The notes below the pieces were generated by a model that was given only the letters and a program-made list of their open reading frames with translations, ran no database searches and was not told the DNA's origin. Made by a program: the position numbers and the translations under genes. This document shows positions 30,594 through 39,611 of a stretch of DNA of 39,611 nucleotides, in pieces. Source of the DNA: Alphaproteobacteria bacterium (lineage in GTDB: Bacteria; Pseudomonadota; Alphaproteobacteria; Acetobacterales; Acetobacteraceae); assembly GCA_016869715.1 (NCBI GenBank), contig VGDM01000011.1:64379-103989 (forward strand), in the 5' to 3' direction. How positions within the stretch are numbered: the first letter of the stretch is position 1; each line of letters begins with the position of its first letter.

Positions 30594-31121
30594 TCAAAAG
30601 AAGTGGGGATTGGACCAGGCGCGCTTGCCCGCCGCATCGACCACTAAAATGCGCGCAAAGCCACCATCGCGCAGTTTTTCGAGCGGCAGCACTGCCCTGG
30701 TCTGCAAGGGCGCCACCGCCTGCGCGGCGGATGAACCACGCCCCAGCACCATGATGCTGGATGCCGGGCTGCACTGCACCTCAACGCGATCCTTTCCCCA
30801 GACAAAGCCTTCAATCCGCGGGCCTTGGCTTGCGTAGAAATGCCCGGCCTTCAGCGCGGCCAGCAGCGCTTCCGATTCATTTTCCGTGGCCTTCACCATG
30901 ACCCAGCCGCCAAACCAATCCTCACAGGCGAAATGCGCGTCATCCACGGCAATCAACGAAACGCGCCGGCCATCGGTCAGCAGCCGATCCGCAAGGAAAG
31001 CACCGCCGCCACGAGCGGTGCGCACCTGGCTGGTGTGCTTGTAGATCTCAACGGCATGCGCGGCGGCGATACTATGCCCATCATCTGGCGTCAGCCCATA
31101 CCAGCCGGGATCAGGCTGCAT
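30594..31121 (-). pseudogene. PHP-family (CehA/McbA-like) metallohydrolase, N-terminal half missing
   Basis: The 175-residue product matches only the C-terminal half of PHP-superfamily proteins (CehA/McbA-like). It begins with GWYGLTPDDG, the part that normally follows the central AHP motif (here PDPGWYG), and continues HAVEIYKHTSQVRTARGGG, LIAVDDAHFACEDWFGGWVM (the metal-binding DDAH), AALKAGHFYASQGPRIEG and AGKRAWSNPHFF at the end. The first half, holding the HxH(S/T)xxSDG metal site and TDH, is absent; the upstream neighbour's stop codon is only 15 nt away. ATG 31121 has AAGGAG 6 nt upstream, so the fragment could still be translated. Without the N-terminal metal ligands it should lack phosphoesterase activity. 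A deletion is the simplest cause. It is the last gene of the long leftward unit. Confidence 0.75.
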
Positions 31122-31136
31122 TGGGTTCTCCTTCAC

Positions 31137-31472
31137 TCATGCGGGCGGGATTTCCGCCAGGGCACAGAACACGGGCTTTCCCGCCCGCCTGAAGCGCCCG
31201 ACTTCCTGATCCGCGCCTTTGCTTGGCCCACCCAGGCGCAGCACGGCATCGCAACGCTCAGCCAAGGCAAGTGATAGCGGCATCATCACTTCGTCAAACA
31301 CATCGCCCTCAGCTGCGGCAATGATGGGCAGCGCCATATTCAAGCCTATCGCCGGGACATGACCAAGCCTGAGGATCGCAAGTGCTGCCTGGTTCGTTTC
31401 AGCCAAACGCGCGGCGCGGAGCGCAACATCAGCGCCACCACGTGTACAAGGCGCGGCGATCATAATCCACAT
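31137..31472 (-). CDS. Small nucleoside-deoxyribosyltransferase/DUF4406-like protein
   Basis: A 111-residue soluble protein resembling small deoxyribosyltransferase/DUF4406-type folds: N-terminal MWIMIAAP strand, RGGADVALRAARLAETNQAA, a hydrophobic GHVPAIGLNMALPIIAA segment, MMPLSLALAERCDAVLRLGG with Glu/Arg/Cys spacing typical of the fold, and SKGADQEVGRFRRAGKPVF. The family often begins with a Gly-Pro-Tyr loop; here it is Ala-Pro-Cys, so the usual catalytic residue in that loop may be changed. Substrate unknown. It begins 3 nt after the end of otnC and is followed 15 nt later by the PHP fragment, so it is part of the same transcript. Confidence 0.6.
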   Translation of the reverse strand: MWIMIAAPCTRGGADVALRAARLAETNQAALAILRLGHVPAIGLNMALPIIAAAEGDVFDEVMMPLSLALAERCDAVLRLGGPSKGADQEVGRFRRAGKPVFCALAEIPPA

Positions 31473-31475
31473 GGA

Positions 31476-32108
31476 TCAGCCGAAAACATCCAGCAGATCA
31501 TCCACTTGCGCCGGCGTCAGGCTACGCGCACCGGCACCGTGCAGCAGCAGCGCAAGCCGCGCGGCTTCTTCCAATTCTTCTGCCGTATGCACGGCATCCT
31601 CCAAAGTGCGGCCCGAGACCACCGGGCCATGATTGGCGAGCAGCACGGCCTTGGCCATCTTAGTGGCCTCGTGAATGTCGTTTTCCATCGCGCCATCGCC
31701 GGGGCGGTAATAGCGGATCACCGGTAAAAGCCGCCCAACACGCATCACGAAATAGGGCGTGAGTGGCGGGATCGGCGCGACCTCCCCGGGTTCGGCAAGA
31801 CAGGCAATCGCGGTGGCATGGGTGGAGTGCAAATGCACCACCGCCCCGGCATCGGGCCGCGCTGTCAGCACTGCGCGATGCATGAAGATTTCCTTGGATG
31901 GCTTGTCACCCGAAACATGCGAAAAATCTGGCCCGAGCTTGGAGATACGCGCGGGATCAAGCCTCCCGAGGCAGGAATTCGCCGGCGTCATCAGAAACCC
32001 ATCCGGCAGCCGCACACTGATATTGCCGGCTGTCCCCACCGAATAGCCGCGCGCAAAGAGCGAGGCGCCAAGGGCAGCGAGTTGCGCGCGCAGCGCTGCC
32101 TCATCCAT
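31476..32108 (-). CDS. otnC: 3-oxo-tetronate 4-phosphate decarboxylase / class II aldolase
   Basis: A 210-residue class II aldolase/adducin-fold enzyme. In the OtnK-OtnC pathway it decarboxylates a 3-oxo-tetronate 4-phosphate to dihydroxyacetone phosphate. Landmarks: GNISVRLPDGFLMTPANS near residue 30, KEIFMHRAVLTARPDAGAVV with the catalytic Glu, HLHSTHATAIA with two zinc histidines, and AVLLANHGPVVSG with the third. Its ATG overlaps the end of the upstream kinase gene by 8 nt, and that kinase is the OtnK-type partner, which supports this name over fuculose aldolase. The route needs an upstream dehydrogenase and an isomerase (OtnI) that are not in this window. Confidence 0.85.
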   Translation of the reverse strand: MDEAALRAQLAALGASLFARGYSVGTAGNISVRLPDGFLMTPANSCLGRLDPARISKLGPDFSHVSGDKPSKEIFMHRAVLTARPDAGAVVHLHSTHATAIACLAEPGEVAPIPPLTPYFVMRVGRLLPVIRYYRPGDGAMENDIHEATKMAKAVLLANHGPVVSGRTLEDAVHTAEELEEAARLALLLHGAGARSLTPAQVDDLLDVFG

Positions 32109-33360
32109 GGGTGAAGGCTTTCAGGAAGCAATCGCGCGCACCAAAATTGCCGGACTTCAACGCCAGATGCAGCCCGTGCGGCTCGGCAAAAGTCCAGGGC
32201 ACACCTGGATCAATCTCGGGACCGATGCGGAGCGCTGTCACGCCAAGCCGCTGCACGACAGCGCCAGAGGTCTCACCCCCCGCCACCACCAGCCTGCCGA
32301 CACCACGTGTGACCAGCCCTGCCGCAATCGTGGCCATGGCCGCTTCAATCAGGGCGCCGGCCGCATCACGGCCAAGCTTCGCCTGCAATGCGGCAACCTT
32401 TTCGGGCGGTGCGCTTGCCGCAATCACCACCGGGCGATCAGCGGCCAATTTACCCGCGACCCATTCCAAAGCCTGCGCCGTCAGCGCCGCCGCATCGGGC
32501 GTGGCCAGCGCATCCAATTCCAAGACCGGCACGTGATCCCGCGCGAGGCCGATTTGCCCGAGCGTCGCGCGCGAACAGGACCCCGCCACCACCGCCGCCA
32601 TGCCCTGCATGGGCGGCAGGCTGGCCGCATCGCCACGCGCGGGCAGCAGGCCGGTACGGCGGAAATTCTCAGGTAGGCCCATCGCAACGCCGGAACCGCC
32701 GGTGATCAGCGCGTGTTGTGCAGCAGCCTCACCAATTGCAAGCAAATGCTGATCCGTCACCGCATCCATAATCGCATAGCGCCGGCCTTGCGCGGCAAGG
32801 CGCATCATGGCCTGGCGCGTGGCGGCGGCACCTTGTTCGACAGTGGTGAAAGGCACCAATCCCACCGCGCCATCAGTTTGCCGGCCAAGCACGCGCACCA
32901 GATTGGCATCGGTCATCGGCGTCAGCGGATGGTTTTCCATGCCGCTTTCATTGAGCAGTGCATTACCGACGAAAAGATGGCCGAGATAGATCGTGCGCCC
33001 ATTGGTCGGGAAGGATGGACAAGCGAGCGCAAAGCCCGAACCCAATCGCTTCAGCAGCGCATCCGCGACAGGCCCGATATTACCCTGCTTCGTGCTGTCA
33101 AATGTCGAGCAATATTTCCAGAAAATCTGCTTGGCACCGGCAGCCAGCAGCGCATCACAAGCGGCAAGCGATTGCGCCACCGCCTCACCCACCGGCGCGG
33201 TGCGCGATTTCAGCGCAACGATCACGGCATCCGCTTCCGGCAGGGGGCCGGCCGGCACGCCAATCACCTGCACGGCAGTCATGCCGCCTTTAACAAGCGT
33301 ATTCGCGAGATCCGTCGCCCCCGTGAAATCATCTGCGATGCAGCCGAGCAAAAGGGGCAT
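32101..33360 (-). CDS. otnK: Four-carbon acid sugar kinase (3-oxo-tetronate kinase)
   Basis: A 419-residue kinase of the DUF1537 family that phosphorylates a 3-oxo-tetronate with ATP ahead of OtnC. The N-terminal domain starts with LLGCIADDFTGATDLANTLV and contains YCSTFDSTKQGNIGPVADAL (substrate loop), CPSFPTNGRTIYLGHLFV and ENHPLTPMTDANLV. The C-terminal nucleotide-binding domain has MAAVVAGSCSRATLGQIGL and the RLVVAGGETSGAVVQRLG signature near residue 370. I chose ATG 33360 (MPLLLGCIADDF) although an in-frame TTG at 33366 exists. The stop overlaps the start of otnC by 8 nt, and the upstream methyltransferase ends 7 nt away. Family members act on D- or L-threonate/erythronate-derived acids; the exact stereoisomer is not determinable. 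Confidence 0.9.
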   Translation of the reverse strand: MPLLLGCIADDFTGATDLANTLVKGGMTAVQVIGVPAGPLPEADAVIVALKSRTAPVGEAVAQSLAACDALLAAGAKQIFWKYCSTFDSTKQGNIGPVADALLKRLGSGFALACPSFPTNGRTIYLGHLFVGNALLNESGMENHPLTPMTDANLVRVLGRQTDGAVGLVPFTTVEQGAAATRQAMMRLAAQGRRYAIMDAVTDQHLLAIGEAAAQHALITGGSGVAMGLPENFRRTGLLPARGDAASLPPMQGMAAVVAGSCSRATLGQIGLARDHVPVLELDALATPDAAALTAQALEWVAGKLAADRPVVIAASAPPEKVAALQAKLGRDAAGALIEAAMATIAAGLVTRGVGRLVVAGGETSGAVVQRLGVTALRIGPEIDPGVPWTFAEPHGLHLALKSGNFGARDCFLKAFTHG

Positions 33361-33366
33361 GTGCAA

Positions 33367-34242
33367 CTACCTTGCAGGAGGAAGGGCGAGGAAATCCTGA
33401 TGACCGATGCGCACGGCAAGCTGCCCGGCGTCGGCCTGATCGCGCCGCGTTTCAAGCCAATCCAGAATGGCCTCCGCACCACGCCTTTCCCAGCCGAGTG
33501 CAGCCAGGCCATGGCCATCGGCAGTGGCGCGGGTAAAGGCGCGGGCGCGACGATCCACCACCCACTCACTCGGCGCGCGATGAATGGCATAGCCATGCGC
33601 GGCAAAGGCTTCCGCCATGACGGCGGGCGCATGCGGCCCGAGTGATGCGCCACCAAAACCCTTGTCGCGCGCCTGGTCTCGGCGAAAGCCGCGGGCCACC
33701 AGCGCATCGGCGGCATGGGGCGGGGTGAAGCGCTCGCGTCCTGTCACATTCAGCGCAGCATAGAAGGGCAGGCGGCGCGCGGCGCAGGCAGCGGCCATGG
33801 CTTCCACCCAACCGCGCGAGACCAGATCACAAAGCGCCGTGCTCACTACCGCATCCACGCGTTCCAAGGGCAGATTGGCCGGTGCGGCGGCAAGGTCGAC
33901 AAGGATCGCTTCAATGCGCCAGGCGCCATGCGGCGCATGGACCAGCAACGCGCTGCGCCCTGGATTGGTGGCGGGCCAACCCACGGCCTCGGCACGGTCA
34001 GCGATGGTGTCAAAGGCACGGGCGAGCAGTTCCGTATCGCTATCCACCAAGGTCCAGCTTTGCGCGCGGCCAATGAAATGGCCAAGCCAGCGGAGCAAGC
34101 TGCCGGTGCCCGCGCCAAGATCAAGCAGGCGTGGCCGCCCCGGCAGAGAAGCCGCGAGCAGCGCCGCCAATTCTGGATTGCGCGCTGCGGCGTCATGAGG
34201 CTCACGCAGGTCGAGCCAATCACCATCGAATCTTTCAGCCAT
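33367..34242 (-). CDS. Class I SAM-dependent methyltransferase
   Basis: A 291-residue Rossmann-fold methyltransferase. SAM motif I is RLLDLGAGTGSLLRWLG at about residue 38, with the acidic strand end TLVDSDTELLARA, and AILVDLAAAP/VDAVVSTALCDLV as later motifs. The C-terminal half (RERFTPPHAADALVARG, FGGASLGPHAPAVMAEAF) is specific to a subfamily with no function I can name. It overlaps the upstream glycosyltransferase gene by 8 nt and lies with it, the FitAB module and the PTPS-like, MDR and RibD-like genes in one leftward run. It may methylate a product of that cluster, but this rests on position only. Confidence 0.82.
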   Translation of the reverse strand: MAERFDGDWLDLREPHDAAARNPELAALLAASLPGRPRLLDLGAGTGSLLRWLGHFIGRAQSWTLVDSDTELLARAFDTIADRAEAVGWPATNPGRSALLVHAPHGAWRIEAILVDLAAAPANLPLERVDAVVSTALCDLVSRGWVEAMAAACAARRLPFYAALNVTGRERFTPPHAADALVARGFRRDQARDKGFGGASLGPHAPAVMAEAFAAHGYAIHRAPSEWVVDRRARAFTRATADGHGLAALGWERRGAEAILDWLETRRDQADAGQLAVRIGHQDFLALPPAR

Positions 34243-35281
34243 GATCGAGAGCTTTCAGGAAAGCGGCGGCGCGGTCCGGCCAGCGCGGCAAGGCTTGGCC
34301 GGCGCGCCAGGAGGCTTCAGCCATGGCGGCGCGCAAGCCCGCATCGAAAATTGGCCGGCGCATGGCGCGTGACAGCGCAGTGTGGTCATCCACCGCCGCC
34401 ACCACGGCAGCATCTTCCGGCACAATATCGGCAATCGCGCCACCGGCGGTGATCGCAAGCGGTAGGCCGCGCGCCATCGCTTCCGCGGCTGCCATGCCAT
34501 AGCCTTCATAACGCGTGGCGAGCGCGAAAAGATCAGCGCGCGCATATTCCGCATCCAAAGCCGCATCCGGCAGCGCGCCCAGAAAGCGCACGCGCTGCGC
34601 GAGGCCAAGCTCCGCCGCCAGTGCCCGCAGCCCATCGGCATGCACGGGATCGCGCGTGGCATCGCCGGCGATGGCGAGCGACCATTCAAGATCGGTCAGA
34701 CGCGCGAGGGCGTGGAGCAGCACATCATGCCCCTTGCGCGGCACAAGCAAGCCAATGCTCAAAATGGCGCAGCCTGGGCCAGCGGAACCGACCGCGCGGG
34801 GCGCGGCATCTGTGCCTGGTTCAATAACCGTGATGCGCGCGGGGTCCGCGCCGAAAGCTTCCGGCAAATCCCGCGCCGTGAGGGTGGAGGTGGTAATGAT
34901 CCGCGCGCAGGCGCTGAACAGTACGCGTTCGGCAGCCTTCAAGGCTTCGCGCTGGCCTTCTAGGGCGCCGGTTTCGAGCGCAGTTGGGTGATGGACCAGC
35001 GCGGTTGCGCTGCGGCGTGTCAGCTCATCAGCCAAGGGCAAAAAGGCAGGCAGGCCGAGGCCATCAATCACAATACACGCGCCTTCGGGGACTTCTGCCA
35101 GGACAGCACGCGCCGCTTCGGTCGCCGCTTCATCCGGGAAGGGATGGCGCCCGGCCAATTCCACCACGCGCACATTCTGCCCGAGTGCGCTGAGCCCTTC
35201 GACCATGCGGCGATCATAGATATAGCCGCCGGAAATCGCGCTGAAGGGCGCGGGGACGATAAGGTGGATGGCGCGGGTCAT
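34235..35281 (-). CDS. Glycosyltransferase family 4
   Basis: A 348-residue GT-B glycosyltransferase transferring a sugar from an NDP-sugar to an unknown acceptor. The N-terminal domain starts with MTRAIHLIVPAPFSAISGGY, a Gly-rich loop, then RRMVEGLSALGQNVRVVELA; the C-terminal domain has ITVIEPGTDAAPRAVGSA, SIGLLVPRKGHDVLLHALAR, and the donor-binding EGYGMAAAEAMARGLPLAIT with the EX7E-type spacing (Glu...Glu). The start at 35281 overlaps the stop of the toxin gene by 4 nt (ATGA); an in-frame upstream start exists. It neighbours the methyltransferase and lies with PTPS-like and RibD-like genes, so the acceptor may be a pterin-type molecule, although a cell-envelope sugar is also possible. Confidence 0.85.
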   Translation of the reverse strand: MTRAIHLIVPAPFSAISGGYIYDRRMVEGLSALGQNVRVVELAGRHPFPDEAATEAARAVLAEVPEGACIVIDGLGLPAFLPLADELTRRSATALVHHPTALETGALEGQREALKAAERVLFSACARIITTSTLTARDLPEAFGADPARITVIEPGTDAAPRAVGSAGPGCAILSIGLLVPRKGHDVLLHALARLTDLEWSLAIAGDATRDPVHADGLRALAAELGLAQRVRFLGALPDAALDAEYARADLFALATRYEGYGMAAAEAMARGLPLAITAGGAIADIVPEDAAVVAAVDDHTALSRAMRRPIFDAGLRAAMAEASWRAGQALPRWPDRAAAFLKALDHG

Positions 35282-35721
35282 GGGGTGTCGCGAGGGCCTT
35301 GCTGATGCGCCCAAGGGTCTATCACCGCTATGCCGCAACCGGCAAAATCCGCGATATTGCGCGTGGCGATGGCGGCTTGCCGGGCGCGGGCAATGGCGGC
35401 GATTTGGCCATCAGCGAAACTGATCGGGCGGCCTGCGGCGCGGCGTTCCAGAAACACCTGCATAAAGGCCTGGGCGGCGGCGCTGTCAAAGGACAGGATG
35501 CGGCCGGCGAAATCCTCGGCGAGCATGGCATCTATCGCGGCCTGCACTTCATGGCGCCGCTTGCCCGCTGGCAGCATGGCGGCACCACGGCGCAATTCGG
35601 CCTCTGTAATCGCGCTCAAATACAATTTGGCGGCGTCTTGCACGGTGAACCAAGCCAGCACGGCTTCGGATGGTGCGGGGCGCATAAGTTCCGAGATCAG
35701 ATTGGTATCCAACAGGATCAT
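35278..35721 (-). CDS. fitB: PIN-domain toxin, VapC/FitB family
   Basis: A 147-residue PIN-domain ribonuclease, the toxin of a type II toxin-antitoxin pair. The acidic metal site is visible: MILLDTNLISELM (Asp5, Glu11), SAITEAELRRG (Glu40/Glu42), ISFADGQIAAIA (Asp104) and TRNIADFAG (Asp125). The sequence LDTNxISE, LSAITxAEL and the AGRPISFADGQIAAIA stretch are those of the FitB/VapC group. It starts 9 nt after the end of the antitoxin and its stop overlaps the glycosyltransferase start, so it is translationally linked to a gene of unrelated role. In Neisseria, FitAB slows intracellular growth; the target RNA here is unknown. Confidence 0.9.
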   Translation of the reverse strand: MILLDTNLISELMRPAPSEAVLAWFTVQDAAKLYLSAITEAELRRGAAMLPAGKRRHEVQAAIDAMLAEDFAGRILSFDSAAAQAFMQVFLERRAAGRPISFADGQIAAIARARQAAIATRNIADFAGCGIAVIDPWAHQQGPRDTP

Positions 35722-35730
35722 GCGCGCGCT

Positions 35731-35973
35731 TCAATCGAGGTGCGGCGGTGCCGGCGTGGCCTCTCGCGGCGGCAGGTCCAGATCAACCCCGCCGAGCACA
35801 GCGAAGCGGCGATGGATGGCCTGGCCGAGATCGACGGTGGGGGCAGGGCAGCTAATGGATTGGCGGAGGATATCGCGCGCCTCTTCTTCCATGGAACGGC
35901 CATGTTCGGCAGCGCGGATTTTAAGGCTACGCTTCAACGCCTCATCAAGATTACGGATGGTAATGCTGGCCAT
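35731..35973 (-). CDS. fitA: FitA-like ribbon-helix-helix antitoxin
   Basis: An 80-residue Arc-type antitoxin that binds and blocks the PIN toxin and, as a dimer complex, represses its own promoter. The N-terminal ribbon-helix-helix reads MASITIRNLDEALKRSLKIR followed by AAEHGRSMEEEARDILRQS, as in FitA. The C-terminal tail (LGQAIHRRFAVLGGVDLDLP) would embrace the toxin. The start at 35973 has AGGAAGGG 7 nt upstream. Immediately before it are a sigma-70-like promoter and three 8-nt operator half-sites. Identity rests on fold, size and neighbour. Confidence 0.9.
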   Translation of the reverse strand: MASITIRNLDEALKRSLKIRAAEHGRSMEEEARDILRQSISCPAPTVDLGQAIHRRFAVLGGVDLDLPPREATPAPPHLD

Positions 35974-35980
35974 GCGGGCG

Positions 35981-36026
35981 CCCTTCCTGATGCAATCATT
36001 GTAATCATTGATTGCACTGCAATCAA
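35981..36026 (-). promoter_or_regulatory. fitAB promoter, ribosome site and triple operator half-sites
   Basis: Leftward promoter: -35 TTGATT (complement of 36021-36026) and -10 TACAAT (35998-36003) with exactly 17 bp between. Half-sites TGCAATCA at 35991-35998 and 36018-36025, with the inverted copy TGATTGCA at 36009-36016, cover the core promoter; the two nearest copies form a palindrome with one base between. AGGAAGGG at 35981-35988 is the antitoxin ribosome site. The layout fits antitoxin-toxin autorepression. Confidence 0.75.
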
Positions 36027-36048
36027 GCGGGGCTTAGGCGCGTTCAGG

Positions 36049-36465
36049 TTAGGCCGCCGGCGCCTCACCCGGCGCGGCTTCATAGGCTGCCCAGGCGATA
36101 TGGCTTTCGCGCAGCAGCACCTTAATGCCCGTCACCGCCTTGCCGCCGGCACCAAGCTTGCCCCCAGCCAAGGCAGCCGATAGGCAGCGATGGATATGCA
36201 GGCAGAGGTATTCCGTTGTCGTGTTCTGCCCGGCAAAGACAGGTTCCGCATCCAGATTGCGATAATCAAACCCGTCCAGGATATGGCGCAGTTCCACCTT
36301 CGCCGCCGCGATATCCACCAGCAGATTGAGCGGATCGAGCTTCGGCGTGCGGAACTCCGCTTCCACGATGAAGGTGGCGCCATGCAGGCGTTGCGCGGGG
36401 CCGAATTCCGCGCCGCGGAAGGAATGGGCGATCATGACGTGATCAACAACGGTCAGGCTGAACAT
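36049..36465 (-). CDS. 6-pyruvoyl-tetrahydropterin-synthase-like protein with altered active site
   Basis: A 138-residue tunnel-fold protein related to PTPS/QueD, enzymes that act on dihydroneopterin triphosphate. The strand order, His14 (MIAHSF), the FDY-based loop (normally DHxxLN), Glu85 in NTTTEYL (PTAENL in QueD) and Glu120 in LLRESHIAWAAYE match the fold. But the catalytic cysteine is absent, the zinc HGH motif reads His28-Gly29-Ala30 so one zinc histidine is lost, and the catalytic Asp-His pair's His is Tyr68. It therefore probably does not do the standard reaction; it could use a modified reaction or bind pterins. I chose ATG 36465, 31 nt after the MDR gene; a start at 36585 would overlap it. 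Confidence 0.75.
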   Translation of the reverse strand: MFSLTVVDHVMIAHSFRGAEFGPAQRLHGATFIVEAEFRTPKLDPLNLLVDIAAAKVELRHILDGFDYRNLDAEPVFAGQNTTTEYLCLHIHRCLSAALAGGKLGAGGKAVTGIKVLLRESHIAWAAYEAAPGEAPAA

Positions 36466-36496
36466 GGGCGGGGTTGTTCCTGTGCGGTTCGGCGGC

Positions 36497-37480
36497 TCAT
36501 GCACCATAGGTGACGAGGGGGCAAAGCGGCGCCGGCGTGCCGGGGGCAGGGTTGAGTAAGCCGGGCATCGCTTGGGGCAAATCATCGAAGGAAGTCACAG
36601 GGCCGATCAGGGCTTCCAGGGTCGGGTCCGCCAGCAGGCCGACCGCCGAGGCCATGCGCCGCCCAAAACTGCGCCGGGCACGCATGGCGGGTGCGACGGC
36701 GCCCACCTGGCTTGAAATCAGGCTCAGGCGGCGGGAATGAAAGGCTTCACCCAAAGGCAACGCGACTTCCTGCGCGCCGAACCAGGAGGCTTCGATAATC
36801 CGCGCCTCAAAGGCTGCGCATTGCAGGGCCTGGCGCAAGCCGGCGGGATTGGCGCTGGCATGGATGATCAATTCTTGATCCTCCGGCGCCGCTTCCGGGG
36901 CGGCGAAAGCCACGCCGAATTGTTCCGCCGTGGCCCGGCGCGATGGGTCGGGGTCAATGATCGTCACCGCCATGGCTGGGATGCGCGCGAGCAGATAGGC
37001 CACCAGCAGCCCGACCACGCCAGCGCCGATCACCAAGGCGCGCTCTCCGGCCAGGGGTCCTGCATCCCAAAGGATATTTAGCGCGGTTTCCATATTGGCG
37101 CCAAGCACGGCGCGGGTATCGGGCACCGCATCCGGAATGGGGATGCACATGGCGGCGGGAGCGAGGAAGAGATCCTGATGCGGGTGGAGGCAAAATACGC
37201 GCCTGCCTTGGAGTTCCGCCGGGCCCTCCATGACGTGCGCCACGCCGCTGTAGCCATATTTCACCGGGAAAGGGAAATCGCCGGCCTGCAAGGGGCAGCG
37301 CATCACGCCCCGTTGGTTTTCCGGCACCTTGCCCGCCAGCACCAACCTTTCTGTTCCACGTGAAATGCCCGATGCCAGCATGCGCGCCAGCACCTGATCC
37401 GGGGCGCGGCGGGGCAGGGTCTCGGTGCGGAGTTCCGCCACGCCGGCGGCGATCGTCCATAAGGCGCGCGCTTTGGTCAT
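36497..37480 (-). CDS. MDR-superfamily (zinc-type) alcohol dehydrogenase-like oxidoreductase
   Basis: A 327-residue medium-chain dehydrogenase-like protein. The N-terminal catalytic domain shows MLASGISRGTERLVLAGKVP and FPFPVKYGYSGVAHVMEGPA, the Rossmann domain VIGAGVVGLLVAYLLARI followed by TIIDPDPSRRATAEQFGVAF and LIIHASANPAGLRQAL, and the C-terminal part ASWFGAQEVALPLGEAFH. The four-cysteine structural zinc loop is missing, and the usual first zinc Cys is replaced in this subgroup (SGISRGTE), as in BchC-like and related unassigned members. It overlaps the RibD-like gene by 4 nt and is followed by the PTPS-like gene, so it probably reduces a ketone on the product of those two enzymes. Substrate not known. 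Confidence 0.8.
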   Translation of the reverse strand: MTKARALWTIAAGVAELRTETLPRRAPDQVLARMLASGISRGTERLVLAGKVPENQRGVMRCPLQAGDFPFPVKYGYSGVAHVMEGPAELQGRRVFCLHPHQDLFLAPAAMCIPIPDAVPDTRAVLGANMETALNILWDAGPLAGERALVIGAGVVGLLVAYLLARIPAMAVTIIDPDPSRRATAEQFGVAFAAPEAAPEDQELIIHASANPAGLRQALQCAAFEARIIEASWFGAQEVALPLGEAFHSRRLSLISSQVGAVAPAMRARRSFGRRMASAVGLLADPTLEALIGPVTSFDDLPQAMPGLLNPAPGTPAPLCPLVTYGA

Positions 37481-38262
37481 GCATGGCCCCCGGGCCGCGC
37501 GCGATCCAGCGCGGCATCAATCAGGATATCGGGCGCGATATCATGCACGCGCCAGGAGAACCTCAGCCCATCAGCGATGCGCGCCACTTCCGCCAAGGTG
37601 AAGGCCGGGATGCCAGAACCAAGCAACACCGGCGCCACGGTGACATGCAGCCGATCGAGACAGCCTGCCGCCAAAAAGCGCGAGACCGTGAGTCCGCCAC
37701 CTTCGACAAAAACCCGGTTCGCCCCGCGTGCCTTGAGCGCTGCGAGCAGGGGCGGAATGGCAAGGCCTCCACCCGGGGCGCGCGGCAGGCGCAAAATCCC
37801 AGCCTCCCCGTGATGGTCAGCCCCGCCGGTATCGGCAGCGCAGACCAGCAGCGTGGGCGGCCCGCCCTGAAAAATCCCGTATTCGGCGGAAAGTTTGCGG
37901 TCCGTATCCAGCACCACACGGAGCGGATCCGGCCCCGGCACTTCGCGGGTTGTGAGGCGCGGATTGTCATAACGCACCGTGCCCGCGCCCACCACCACGG
38001 CGTGGCAAAGTGCGCGCAGCCGATGCGTGTGCAGGATATCACCGGGGCCACCGATCCATTGGCTTGACCCGGCAGTGGTGGCGATGCGGCCATCCAGCGT
38101 TTGCGCGAGCCGCCCTATGATGCGGCAGCCATCAGGGGCTGAGGGTAGCGCCAGCACTGGGCCAAATAGCGCGGCAAGCGGGCCAGCAGGCAGCGCCGCG
38201 CCCGCGCCATCACGCAAAGCGAGCAGGGCTGACCATTCGGCGGCTTCGGCGGTGGGTTCCAT
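37477..38262 (-). CDS. RibD C-terminal-domain (DHFR-like) pyrimidine/pterin reductase
   Basis: A 261-residue NADPH-dependent reductase with the RibD C-terminal fold, without the deaminase half found in bifunctional RibD. Landmarks: CRIIGRLAQTLDGRIATTAG (DHFR-like substrate segment), SSQWIGGPGDILHTHRLRAL, AVVVGAGTVRYDNPRLTTRE (NADPH), PDPLRVVLDTDRKL, ANRVFVEGGGLTVSRFLAAG and DRLHVTVAPVLLGSG. The substrate could be a pyrimidine (riboflavin pathway) or a pterin: in tetrahydromethanopterin synthesis a related protein reduces dihydropterin. It is first in a leftward run with MDR, PTPS-like, GT4 and SAM-methyltransferase genes; since the neighbour resembles a pterin enzyme, pterin reduction is favoured. 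ATG 38262 has no good ribosome site. Confidence 0.82.
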   Translation of the reverse strand: MEPTAEAAEWSALLALRDGAGAALPAGPLAALFGPVLALPSAPDGCRIIGRLAQTLDGRIATTAGSSQWIGGPGDILHTHRLRALCHAVVVGAGTVRYDNPRLTTREVPGPDPLRVVLDTDRKLSAEYGIFQGGPPTLLVCAADTGGADHHGEAGILRLPRAPGGGLAIPPLLAALKARGANRVFVEGGGLTVSRFLAAGCLDRLHVTVAPVLLGSGIPAFTLAEVARIADGLRFSWRVHDIAPDILIDAALDRARPGGHA

Positions 38263-38774: not shown

Positions 38775-39290
38775 TCAAGGCGCAGCCAGATTGATCGTGA
38801 AAAACGGCAGCAGCGCCCGCATGATCAAGCCTGCCAGCACCGGCAGGAAAAAGGACGATGCCAGGCGCAGCGCCACAAAGCGCCAGCCCAGTACAGGGTA
38901 TTCCCAGGTCAAGATCCTGTGCATCGCATAGACCGACCAGGCGGTGAGCAGCGCGGTCATTTGCGCAACCCCTGCGCCGGCCTTGCTGAAGGTGATCGCC
39001 AAAGGGAAGGTCACAAAAGGCCCGCCCGGCATGACACCGCCAGCCAGTGCCGCGATCATGATGCCATTCAGGCCGGAATCATCGCCAAGCCAGGCGGTGG
39101 CGATATCGGCCGGCACAAGTTCTGACAGAAACGCCGCCATCGGTAGCGCCACGCAGAACATGGGCAGGATGCGCCAAAAGCCACGATTGGTCTCGGCCGC
39201 TGCGCGCCTGGCCTGGGGCATGCCGCGGCGCATGCAAACTGCGAGCACCGCCAGTGCAATGACCCAAAGGAAGATTTGCGGCCCACTCAT
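38775..39290 (-). CDS. Permease-like membrane protein (ArsP_1/YraQ-like)
   Basis: A 171-residue membrane protein with about five helices: FLWVIALAVLAVCMRRGMPQ, WRILPMFCVALPMAAFLSEL, the GDDSGLNGIMIAALAGGVMPGGPFV segment with a PGGP turn, LTAWSVYAMHRILTWEYPVL and LRLASSFFLPVLAGLIM. The repeat-like turn motif and half-length fit the half-transporters of the permease family that includes ArsP and YraQ; the substrate is unknown. Its ATG overlaps the stop of the next gene (ATGA), which encodes a related protein, so the two likely form a heterodimer. Confidence 0.6.
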   Translation of the reverse strand: MSGPQIFLWVIALAVLAVCMRRGMPQARRAAAETNRGFWRILPMFCVALPMAAFLSELVPADIATAWLGDDSGLNGIMIAALAGGVMPGGPFVTFPLAITFSKAGAGVAQMTALLTAWSVYAMHRILTWEYPVLGWRFVALRLASSFFLPVLAGLIMRALLPFFTINLAAP

Positions 39291-39611
39291 TTCGGCGGTT
39301 CCCAGGTGATGGGCACGCGCCGCGCGATCCAGCCCGCGAGTATCGGCATGGGGAAGGTGATCAATGTGCGCAACAGCGCGAAATCAAGGCCGAGTAGCGG
39401 CGCCTCATAGACCAACAATTTTTGGAAGCCATTCAGCGACCAGGCGAGGATGAAGGCGACCAGCGCACCGCGATCCGCACCCGCACCCGCCAGCACCAGC
39501 ACCAGCGGAAAGGCCGCCATGGGGCCCCCGGGCGATAGCGTGCCGACCAGCGTTGCGACAAACAATCCGAAAACTCCGCTATCCGCCCCCATCCAGCGCG
39601 CCAAAGCATCC
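39287..39611 (-). CDS. Second permease-like protein, paralogous to its neighbour (partial; extends beyond window)
   Basis: The visible part has MGADSGVFGLFVATLVGTLSP with a PGGP turn, FILAWSLNGFQKLLVYEAPL and ALLRTLITFPMPILAGWIAR, matching the corresponding stretches of the 38775-39290 protein position by position (GxDSG, PGGPxxxFPL, AWSxxxxxxxLxxEyPlLG). The two therefore derive from a duplication of a half-transporter. The start lies outside the window. Confidence 0.55.
   Translation of the reverse strand, partial: DALARWMGADSGVFGLFVATLVGTLSPGGPMAAFPLVLVLAGAGADRGALVAFILAWSLNGFQKLLVYEAPLLGLDFALLRTLITFPMPILAGWIARRVPITWEPPK

Follow-up and report, generated by a model that had tools for sequence, protein, structure and literature searches.

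What is made by five neighbouring genes of an alphaproteobacterium of the family Acetobacteraceae? The genes lie in a stretch of 39,611 nucleotides, all of which is called here the window (assembly GCA_016869715.1, contig VGDM01000011.1, positions 64,379 to 103,989). An earlier note, made from the letters alone, read them as a cluster that reduces, glycosylates and methylates a pterin-like compound. All five families that it named are present, encoded together on the minus strand as a single run that reads leftward (33367-38262): a RibD-type reductase (RibDx), a medium-chain dehydrogenase/reductase (MDR), a PTPS-like protein (PTPSx), a GT4 glycosyltransferase (GT4) and a methyltransferase (MT). 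The results presented below support the view that these genes form a single conserved set for biosynthesis and represent, with five genes, a pathway found in four phyla. They also lead us to give a probability of about 0.5 to a dedicated cluster that starts from GTP and yields a glycosylated, methylated pteridine or ribityl-pyrimidine. A search of open-licence papers brought up none that deals with the cluster; the Streptomyces version is said to have been studied previously at two of its proteins.

The set co-occurs well beyond the genus. In an even draw across the class, 36 of 289 genomes, among them that of the window, carry PTPSx (31 of 224 genera), and a draw across the phylum yielded 27 carriers in 398 genomes at E 1e-20. 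A scan of one genome per species gave at least 595 pattern matches, at least 587 of them encoding a PTPSx relative. The best 80 of these belong to Pseudomonadota (53), Actinomycetota (25), Acidobacteriota (1) and Gemmatimonadota (1), the last two carriers being one metagenome assembly each. The Pseudomonadota carriers span Alpha- and Gammaproteobacteria; Acetobacteraceae and Roseomonadaceae are over-represented among the best 80, an effect of ranking the matches by how similar they are to the query. PTPSx is also present on 20 plasmid records, including those of Streptomyces, Microbacterium and Rhizobium. Four metagenome bins titled Asaia bogorensis (L093, L094, L126 and L129) hold Roseomonas-like copies, and the titles may be wrong.

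The neighbourhood is described here from 142 loci, made up of the window, the 35 loci of the even class draw, the best 80 named contigs, 6 of the 20 plasmid records and 20 of the 23 carriers that the phylum draw had newly added. Loci were picked by the PTPSx gene and not by its neighbours, the plasmid records being chosen for variety, and a cyclohydrolase II, creatininase or RibDx gene within 9.5 kb was counted as linked. MDR lies directly upstream of PTPSx on the same strand at 136 loci (33 of the 35 in the even draw), GT4 shortly downstream at 131 (33 of 35), MT downstream at 120 (31 of 35) and RibDx nearby at 113 (27 of 35). All five genes are present at 97 loci (24 of 35), some of the misses being contig ends, and the order MDR-PTPSx-GT4-MT is retained in most of the 142 loci, the gene order being much alike across the four phyla. 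As members of these loci served to build the family models, the counts given here cannot be treated as independent of the set. A control scan covered 145,218 bp, consisting of eight same-genome stretches around cyclohydrolase or creatininase genes and the left 30 kb of the window. Within these 145,218 bp no MDR, PTPS, MT, CDP-alcohol phosphotransferase or flippase-like match was obtained. There was one GT4 match (75 bits) and one RibD match, the latter in the stretch holding the canonical ribD, together with seven creatininase matches and two open reading frames (ORFs) matched by cyclohydrolase models, as expected from the choice of stretches. RibDx is a frequent but not an obligatory member of the set. 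Three loci without a GT4 match (L072, L147 and L191) have the order MDR-PTPSx-MT, followed by RibDx in L072 and L191; a ribokinase and an MtnA-type gene lie near L072.

The protein by which the loci were chosen is not a conventional member of its family. PTPSx is a close relative, over residues 1-131, of PDB 3d7j, which is SCO6650 of Streptomyces coelicolor, a protein that, according to work attributed to Spoonamore et al. (2006, 2008), reportedly has neither zinc nor PTPS activity. Where the classical PTPS 2g64 has its HGH motif and the DH of its triad, PTPSx has HGA and DY. With the roles of these positions taken from the classical enzymes, the first and second zinc histidines are retained in all 142 proteins and the third is Ala in all 142. 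The position of the catalytic Cys is occupied by Ala in 141 and by Ser in one, and that of the triad His is never His (Tyr in 125, Phe in 8, Met in 5, Leu in 4). Glu160, at what would be the pterin-anchor position, is kept in 142 of 142. The signature FGPAQ-xx-HGAT takes the place of CxxxHGH, with A64 in 141 of 142 and H68 and A70 in every protein, that of the window included. PTPSx therefore shares with QueD and PTPS the T-fold (PF01242), two of three zinc histidines and the anchor Glu but, having lost the third zinc His, the Cys and the triad His, cannot be an ordinary PTPS or QueD. The likeness to the biopterin route that the earlier note had drawn fails at this point, since the residues of an active PTPS are the ones that are gone.

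These residues also bear on the annotation under which the protein is filed. Plasmid records name relatives of PTPSx 6-carboxytetrahydropterin synthase and attach a queuosine Gene Ontology term. No second PTPS-family gene, moreover, was found in the assembly of the window (196 contigs, completeness 100, contamination 5), and it might be argued that PTPSx is a QueD-type queuosine enzyme with incidental neighbours. We regard the chance of this as close to nil. As judged from the aligned sequences, the residues contradict the annotation; the losses of the third zinc His, the Cys and the triad His extend to all 142 loci and led us to reject a QueD function. The window protein scores 35.8 bits with the QueD model against a cut-off of 89.25, and the company of MDR, GT4 and MT is constant.

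A pathway of this kind must be entered somewhere, and a clue is provided by genes that join the set at other loci. The earlier note was right that no GTP cyclohydrolase adjoins the set in the window, yet a GTP cyclohydrolase II is linked at 42 of the 142 loci (12 of 35 in the even draw). A creatininase-family hydrolase is linked at 26 (6 of 35). Both are absent beside the window's set, as they are at most other loci. The linked cyclohydrolase is of type II, the riboflavin type. In Streptomyces, SCO6655 is said, on the strength of work by Spoonamore et al. in 2006, to make a formylated pyrimidine since its equivalent of Tyr105 in E. coli RibA is Met. PMC3509567 cites Spoonamore et al. 2006, and SCO6655 is named in a 2010 metabolic model. 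Among 41 linked cyclohydrolases this switch residue is Tyr in 28, Met in 9 and His in 4; L050 was excluded, its matched ORF being degenerate at the cyclohydrolase motif. A creatininase-family gene is linked at 13 of 13 non-Tyr loci and at 8 of 28 Tyr loci (Fisher p 1.6e-5, kinship ignored), and inside Actinomycetota the proportions are 13 of 13 and 0 of 8. The constant pairing of a non-Tyr cyclohydrolase with a creatininase fits a formylated intermediate that needs deformylation. On the MDR protein tree, at least 4 changes can be counted for the switch residue and 8 for the creatininase. In all 26 linked hydrolases E59, H61, D70, H144, H191 and E196 are kept, and these we take to be metal ligands. 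The archaeal formamide hydrolase ArfB belongs to the same creatininase family, and a hydrolase of this type would supply the deformylation required by non-Tyr cyclohydrolases; PMC13028884 describes the archaeal step and makes a similar claim for Sinorhizobium meliloti. We take this switch-residue rule as moderate support for a cluster that starts from GTP via cyclohydrolase II.

The genome of the window may be considered in this light. It has two cyclohydrolases II, a Tyr-type enzyme on contig C3 and a second near the canonical ribD on contig C13; as the C3 enzyme has Tyr, no deformylase would be needed. Six creatininase-family genes lie elsewhere in the genome. Two of these score 277 and 266 bits with the cluster hydrolase model, for which five linked members from loci of other classes (L175, L178-L180 and L182) give 244-295, and it is conceivable from these scores that an unlinked hydrolase serves the cluster.

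The remaining core proteins can be assigned to families with varying precision. RibDx consists of the RibD_C domain alone, with no N-terminal deaminase domain by Pfam, and its nearest solved relatives by sequence are a pyrimidine-phosphate reductase (6p8c) and RibD proteins. Residues D57, G58, T95, D99, R106 and E187-G188-G189 are retained in 110-113 of 113 proteins, and H78 (99), H80 (103), R115 (106) and D119 (103) are more variable. In these RibD_C residues RibDx resembles RibD and the archaeal and fungal ribosylamino-pyrimidine reductases, and like the archaeal enzyme it has no deaminase domain. It differs from both these and RibD in falling below the cut-offs of TIGR00227 (126 against 150) and TIGR01508 (90 against 186), and a separate ribD is present in the genome. 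Its sequence makes it a probable, still putative, reductase of a ribosylamino-pyrimidine phosphate. In MDR, S40-R-G-T-E44 and K74-Y-G-Y77 stand where, from what is generally known of the family, zinc MDRs would carry Cys and His-Glu. The nucleotide motif G152xGxxG157 is present in 138 of 138 proteins, and D176, presumably the Asp typical of NAD use, in 137 of 138. MDR is therefore probably a zinc-free, NAD-dependent medium-chain dehydrogenase/reductase, weakly BchC-like. In GT4 the EX7E pair is well preserved (E278 in 134 of 134, E286 in 127 of 134), and the S-adenosylmethionine (SAM) motif of MT, D41-x-G-x-G45-x-G47, is found in 120-126 of 126 at each position. The AlphaFold model of MDR (mean pLDDT, the predicted local distance difference test, 94.6) gave MDR folds as top matches, polyol dehydrogenases and TarJ among them, and the model of MT (pLDDT 96.3) matched class I methyltransferases. 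Since both matched only generic folds, no substrate follows from them.

Based on these assignments we propose the following route, in which every substrate, the order of the steps and the product are inferred from the gene content, conservation, residue losses and linkage described above. GTP cyclohydrolase II, linked elsewhere and represented here by the Tyr-type copy on contig C3, would open the guanine ring of GTP to give 2,5-diamino-6-ribosylamino-pyrimidinone phosphate. Where the switch Tyr is missing, a formylated intermediate would be formed and deformylated by the linked creatininase-family hydrolase. RibDx would convert the ribosyl to a ribityl chain without prior deamination, so that the 2-amino group stays, as in pterins. 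PTPSx, without a full zinc site, may hold the pyrimidine, or a bicyclic ring made from it, by means of the conserved Glu and catalyse a non-classical and probably metal-free step, which could be a ring closure, a tautomerisation or a side-chain step. The zinc-free MDR would oxidise or reduce the side chain, GT4 would add a sugar and MT a methyl group. Many lineages also possess a CDP-alcohol phosphotransferase and a flippase-like membrane protein, by which the product may be completed or moved at the membrane. The linked cyclohydrolase II and the retained anchor Glu support a GTP-derived, pterin-like start. To this extent the pterin-like pathway of the earlier note is plausible; its enzymology differs from that of the biopterin route, and the observation is more general than the note could tell.

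Several observations weigh against this proposal. RibDx is linked in only 11 of 25 named Actinomycetota loci. Ten genomes were searched for it, two of them (G246 and G053) as linked controls. The other eight are even-draw genomes without RibDx at the locus: two have a high-scoring unlinked copy (G028, 300 bits; G035, 271 bits), five have only matches at the level of canonical RibD or weaker (G175, G271, G231, G096 and G233) and one, G064, which is 68% complete, has none. Fewer than one locus in three has a linked cyclohydrolase II. In several genomes, moreover, the linked enzyme is the best-scoring copy and so may be the riboflavin gene; this is the case in G162, G033, G260, G060, G131, G277, G189 and G259 among 15 carriers counted, and in G015, G216 and G161 it exists beside a stronger unlinked copy. 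The switch-residue rule is itself open to objections. Only 2 well-supported independent pairs could be compared, both in agreement, so that a test aware of kinship cannot reach significance, and creatininase also adjoins 8 Tyr-type cyclohydrolases. Finally, 3 of the 26 linked hydrolases were scanned and fitted the MftE model (105-132 bits) better than that of ArfB (25-38 bits), all scores lying below cut-off.

Two other products must be weighed against a GTP-derived pteridine or pyrimidine. The first is a glycolipid or envelope sugar, made by a CDP-alcohol phosphotransferase, GT4, MT and a flippase, with PTPSx and RibDx recruited to a ribitol-type step. The linkage of the CDP-alcohol phosphotransferase at 54 of 142 loci (12 of 35 in the even draw) and of the flippase-like LPG_synthase_TM protein at 38 (0 of 35) speaks for it, as do the likeness of the MDR model to polyol dehydrogenases and TarJ and the loss of the catalytic residues of PTPSx. 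The linked cyclohydrolase II, the RibDx residues and the anchor Glu all point instead to a ring derived from GTP, and the five-gene core is complete in the window's genome, where the CDP-alcohol phosphotransferase has no clear orthologue (two weak matches, best 1.3e-5) and the flippase-like protein has no match in a search that lacked a positive control there. We consider a glycolipid product unlikely. The earlier note had raised the related point that GT4 and MT might belong with envelope enzymes; the same families stay with the cluster in most of the 142 loci, and closer envelope relatives were not searched for. The second is an antibiotic-like secondary metabolite derived from a pyrimidine, similar to toxoflavin. 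The toxoflavin route begins with a cyclohydrolase II, a RibD-like reductase and a methyltransferase, so that the first enzymes would be the same, and the presence of PTPSx on plasmids, together with an RND efflux set that adjoins the cluster in Methylosinus, would suit such a product. However, the gene order is similar across four phyla and is found in two genomes of 1.4-1.6 Mb, unlike that of an antibiotic cluster, and no polyketide or peptide synthase is listed in the six annotated plasmid stretches. These two genomes, both alphaproteobacterial (L064 and L066, 1.6 and 1.4 Mb) and with loci of 26-28% guanine plus cytosine, retain the whole set with a linked cyclohydrolase II and creatininase, and this retention argues for a product of everyday use. 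A toxoflavin-like metabolite is accordingly improbable in our judgement.

A more specific version of the GTP-derived pathway may also be put forward, as a tentative idea that we would not bet on. The set could make a cofactor of a new class, derived from GTP: a ribityl-pteridine or ribityl-diaminopyrimidine bearing a sugar and a methyl group. In many bacteria it would be tethered to the membrane or flipped across it by the linked CDP-alcohol phosphotransferase and flippase-like protein. Four phyla or more would form it with the help of a metal-free PTPSx, and electron transfer may be its use. This last suggestion is made because cytochrome b561 and YceI are each linked at 14 of the 142 loci (7 and 8 of the 35 in the even draw, respectively).

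The organisation of the locus is summarised in Table 1.

Table 1. Genes of the leftward run and the evidence for their assignment.
Feature	Position	Strand	Evidence
RibDx	37477..38262	-	PF01872/RibD_C 2.5e-38, residues 49-223 of 261
MDR	36497..37480	-	below Pfam ADH_zinc_N cut-off; best NCBIfam BchC, 50 bits against cut-off of 291
PTPSx	36049..36465	-	PF01242 1.7e-18; PDB 3d7j 2.2e-41
Antitoxin-like small ORF	35731..35973	-	reading of the sequence and position beside the PIN gene, without family search
VapC-type PIN-domain toxin	35278..35721	-	PF01850 2.1e-10
GT4 glycosyltransferase, retaining GT-B	34235..35281	-	PF00534 3e-27
MT, class I SAM methyltransferase, unnamed family	33367..34242	-	weak PF13649; Pfam matches below cut-off; no NCBIfam match
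OtnK 3-oxo-tetronate kinase	32101..33366	-	NF043035, 598 bits against cut-off of 350
OtnC 3-oxo-tetronate 4-phosphate decarboxylase	31476..32108	-	NF043034, 276 bits against cut-off of 250

The close packing noted earlier holds for most of the run: RibDx and MDR overlap by 4 bp, 31 bp separate MDR from PTPSx, GT4 and MT overlap by 8 bp and MT meets OtnK with 0 bp between them. It breaks down between PTPSx and GT4, where a VapBC-type toxin-antitoxin pair on the same strand (35278-35973), missed by the earlier note, sits as an insertion of about 780 bp. In the close relatives L093 and L094, with PTPSx 96% identical, the PTPSx and GT4 flanks align around some five bases where the window has 782. 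The insertion is absent from these two and present in L092, and because of it the window and L092 exceed the distance allowed for GT4. The toxin-antitoxin pair is not part of the pathway. Its insertion does raise the question of whether the operon is degenerating in this genome and makes nothing today, as might also be supposed from the absence of a linked cyclohydrolase and of a CDP-alcohol phosphotransferase or flippase. We think this very unlikely: all five core reading frames are intact with their motifs retained, the insertion is intergenic and on the same strand, and close relatives carry the same five genes.

OtnK and OtnC do follow in the run, as the earlier note had stated, and both exceed their cut-offs, but they lie outside the conserved set. 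OtnK is linked in the window, at 42 of the 49 loci with an alphaproteobacterial name and in three metagenome-assembled genomes whose name goes no further than Proteobacteria; no other locus among the 142 has it. Its linkage is confined to Acetobacteraceae-type loci, in most of which it follows the cluster, and for this reason we rejected OtnK and OtnC as later steps of the pathway. They form a separate sugar-acid module that looks unrelated to the cluster, although the two stay together. Plasmid records with a DNA match to the window's stretch number 302, and in the 10 of them that were listed the OtnK/OtnC part alone matched; a search with DNA would miss a diverged cluster. The span 30594-38262 of the earlier note covers in addition two small genes beyond OtnC. 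The last gene of the run (30594-31136) encodes a small protein weakly similar to CehA/McbA and DUF3604 metallohydrolases, and in Methylosinus (L069), too, the cluster has a DUF3604 gene in its vicinity. Upstream of the cluster, at 38775-39610, two adjoining ORFs read as permease-like, and a related ORF is found upstream at other loci.

Of known systems, the SCO6650-type cluster, named after the SCO6650-SCO6655 region of Streptomyces coelicolor, is among the nearest. In one Streptomyces copy it comprises a CDP-alcohol phosphotransferase, MDR, PTPSx, GT4, MT, a flippase-like protein, a creatininase and a Met-type cyclohydrolase II. The window shares with it a PTPSx close to SCO6650 and, insertion aside, MDR, GT4 and MT in order; it differs in having the five-gene core only, without a linked cyclohydrolase or creatininase, and in belonging to the Acetobacteraceae. 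For the sugar-adding step there is a precedent in the pteridine glycosyltransferases of Chlorobium and cyanobacteria, which attach a sugar to a pteridine, the Chlorobium enzyme acting on tetrahydrobiopterin (PMC5683033). GT4 is likened to these enzymes by its proposed function only, and the cluster has no residue-complete PTPS.

As a whole, these results place the locus of the window as one of hundreds of copies of a conserved and unexplained pathway, hidden by annotation because a key gene is named as a queuosine enzyme despite its lost catalytic residues. The switch-residue rule provides a direct handle on the entry step. If the product is a sugar-bearing, methylated relative of the pterin or riboflavin family, a possibly common small molecule may await discovery in these bacteria.

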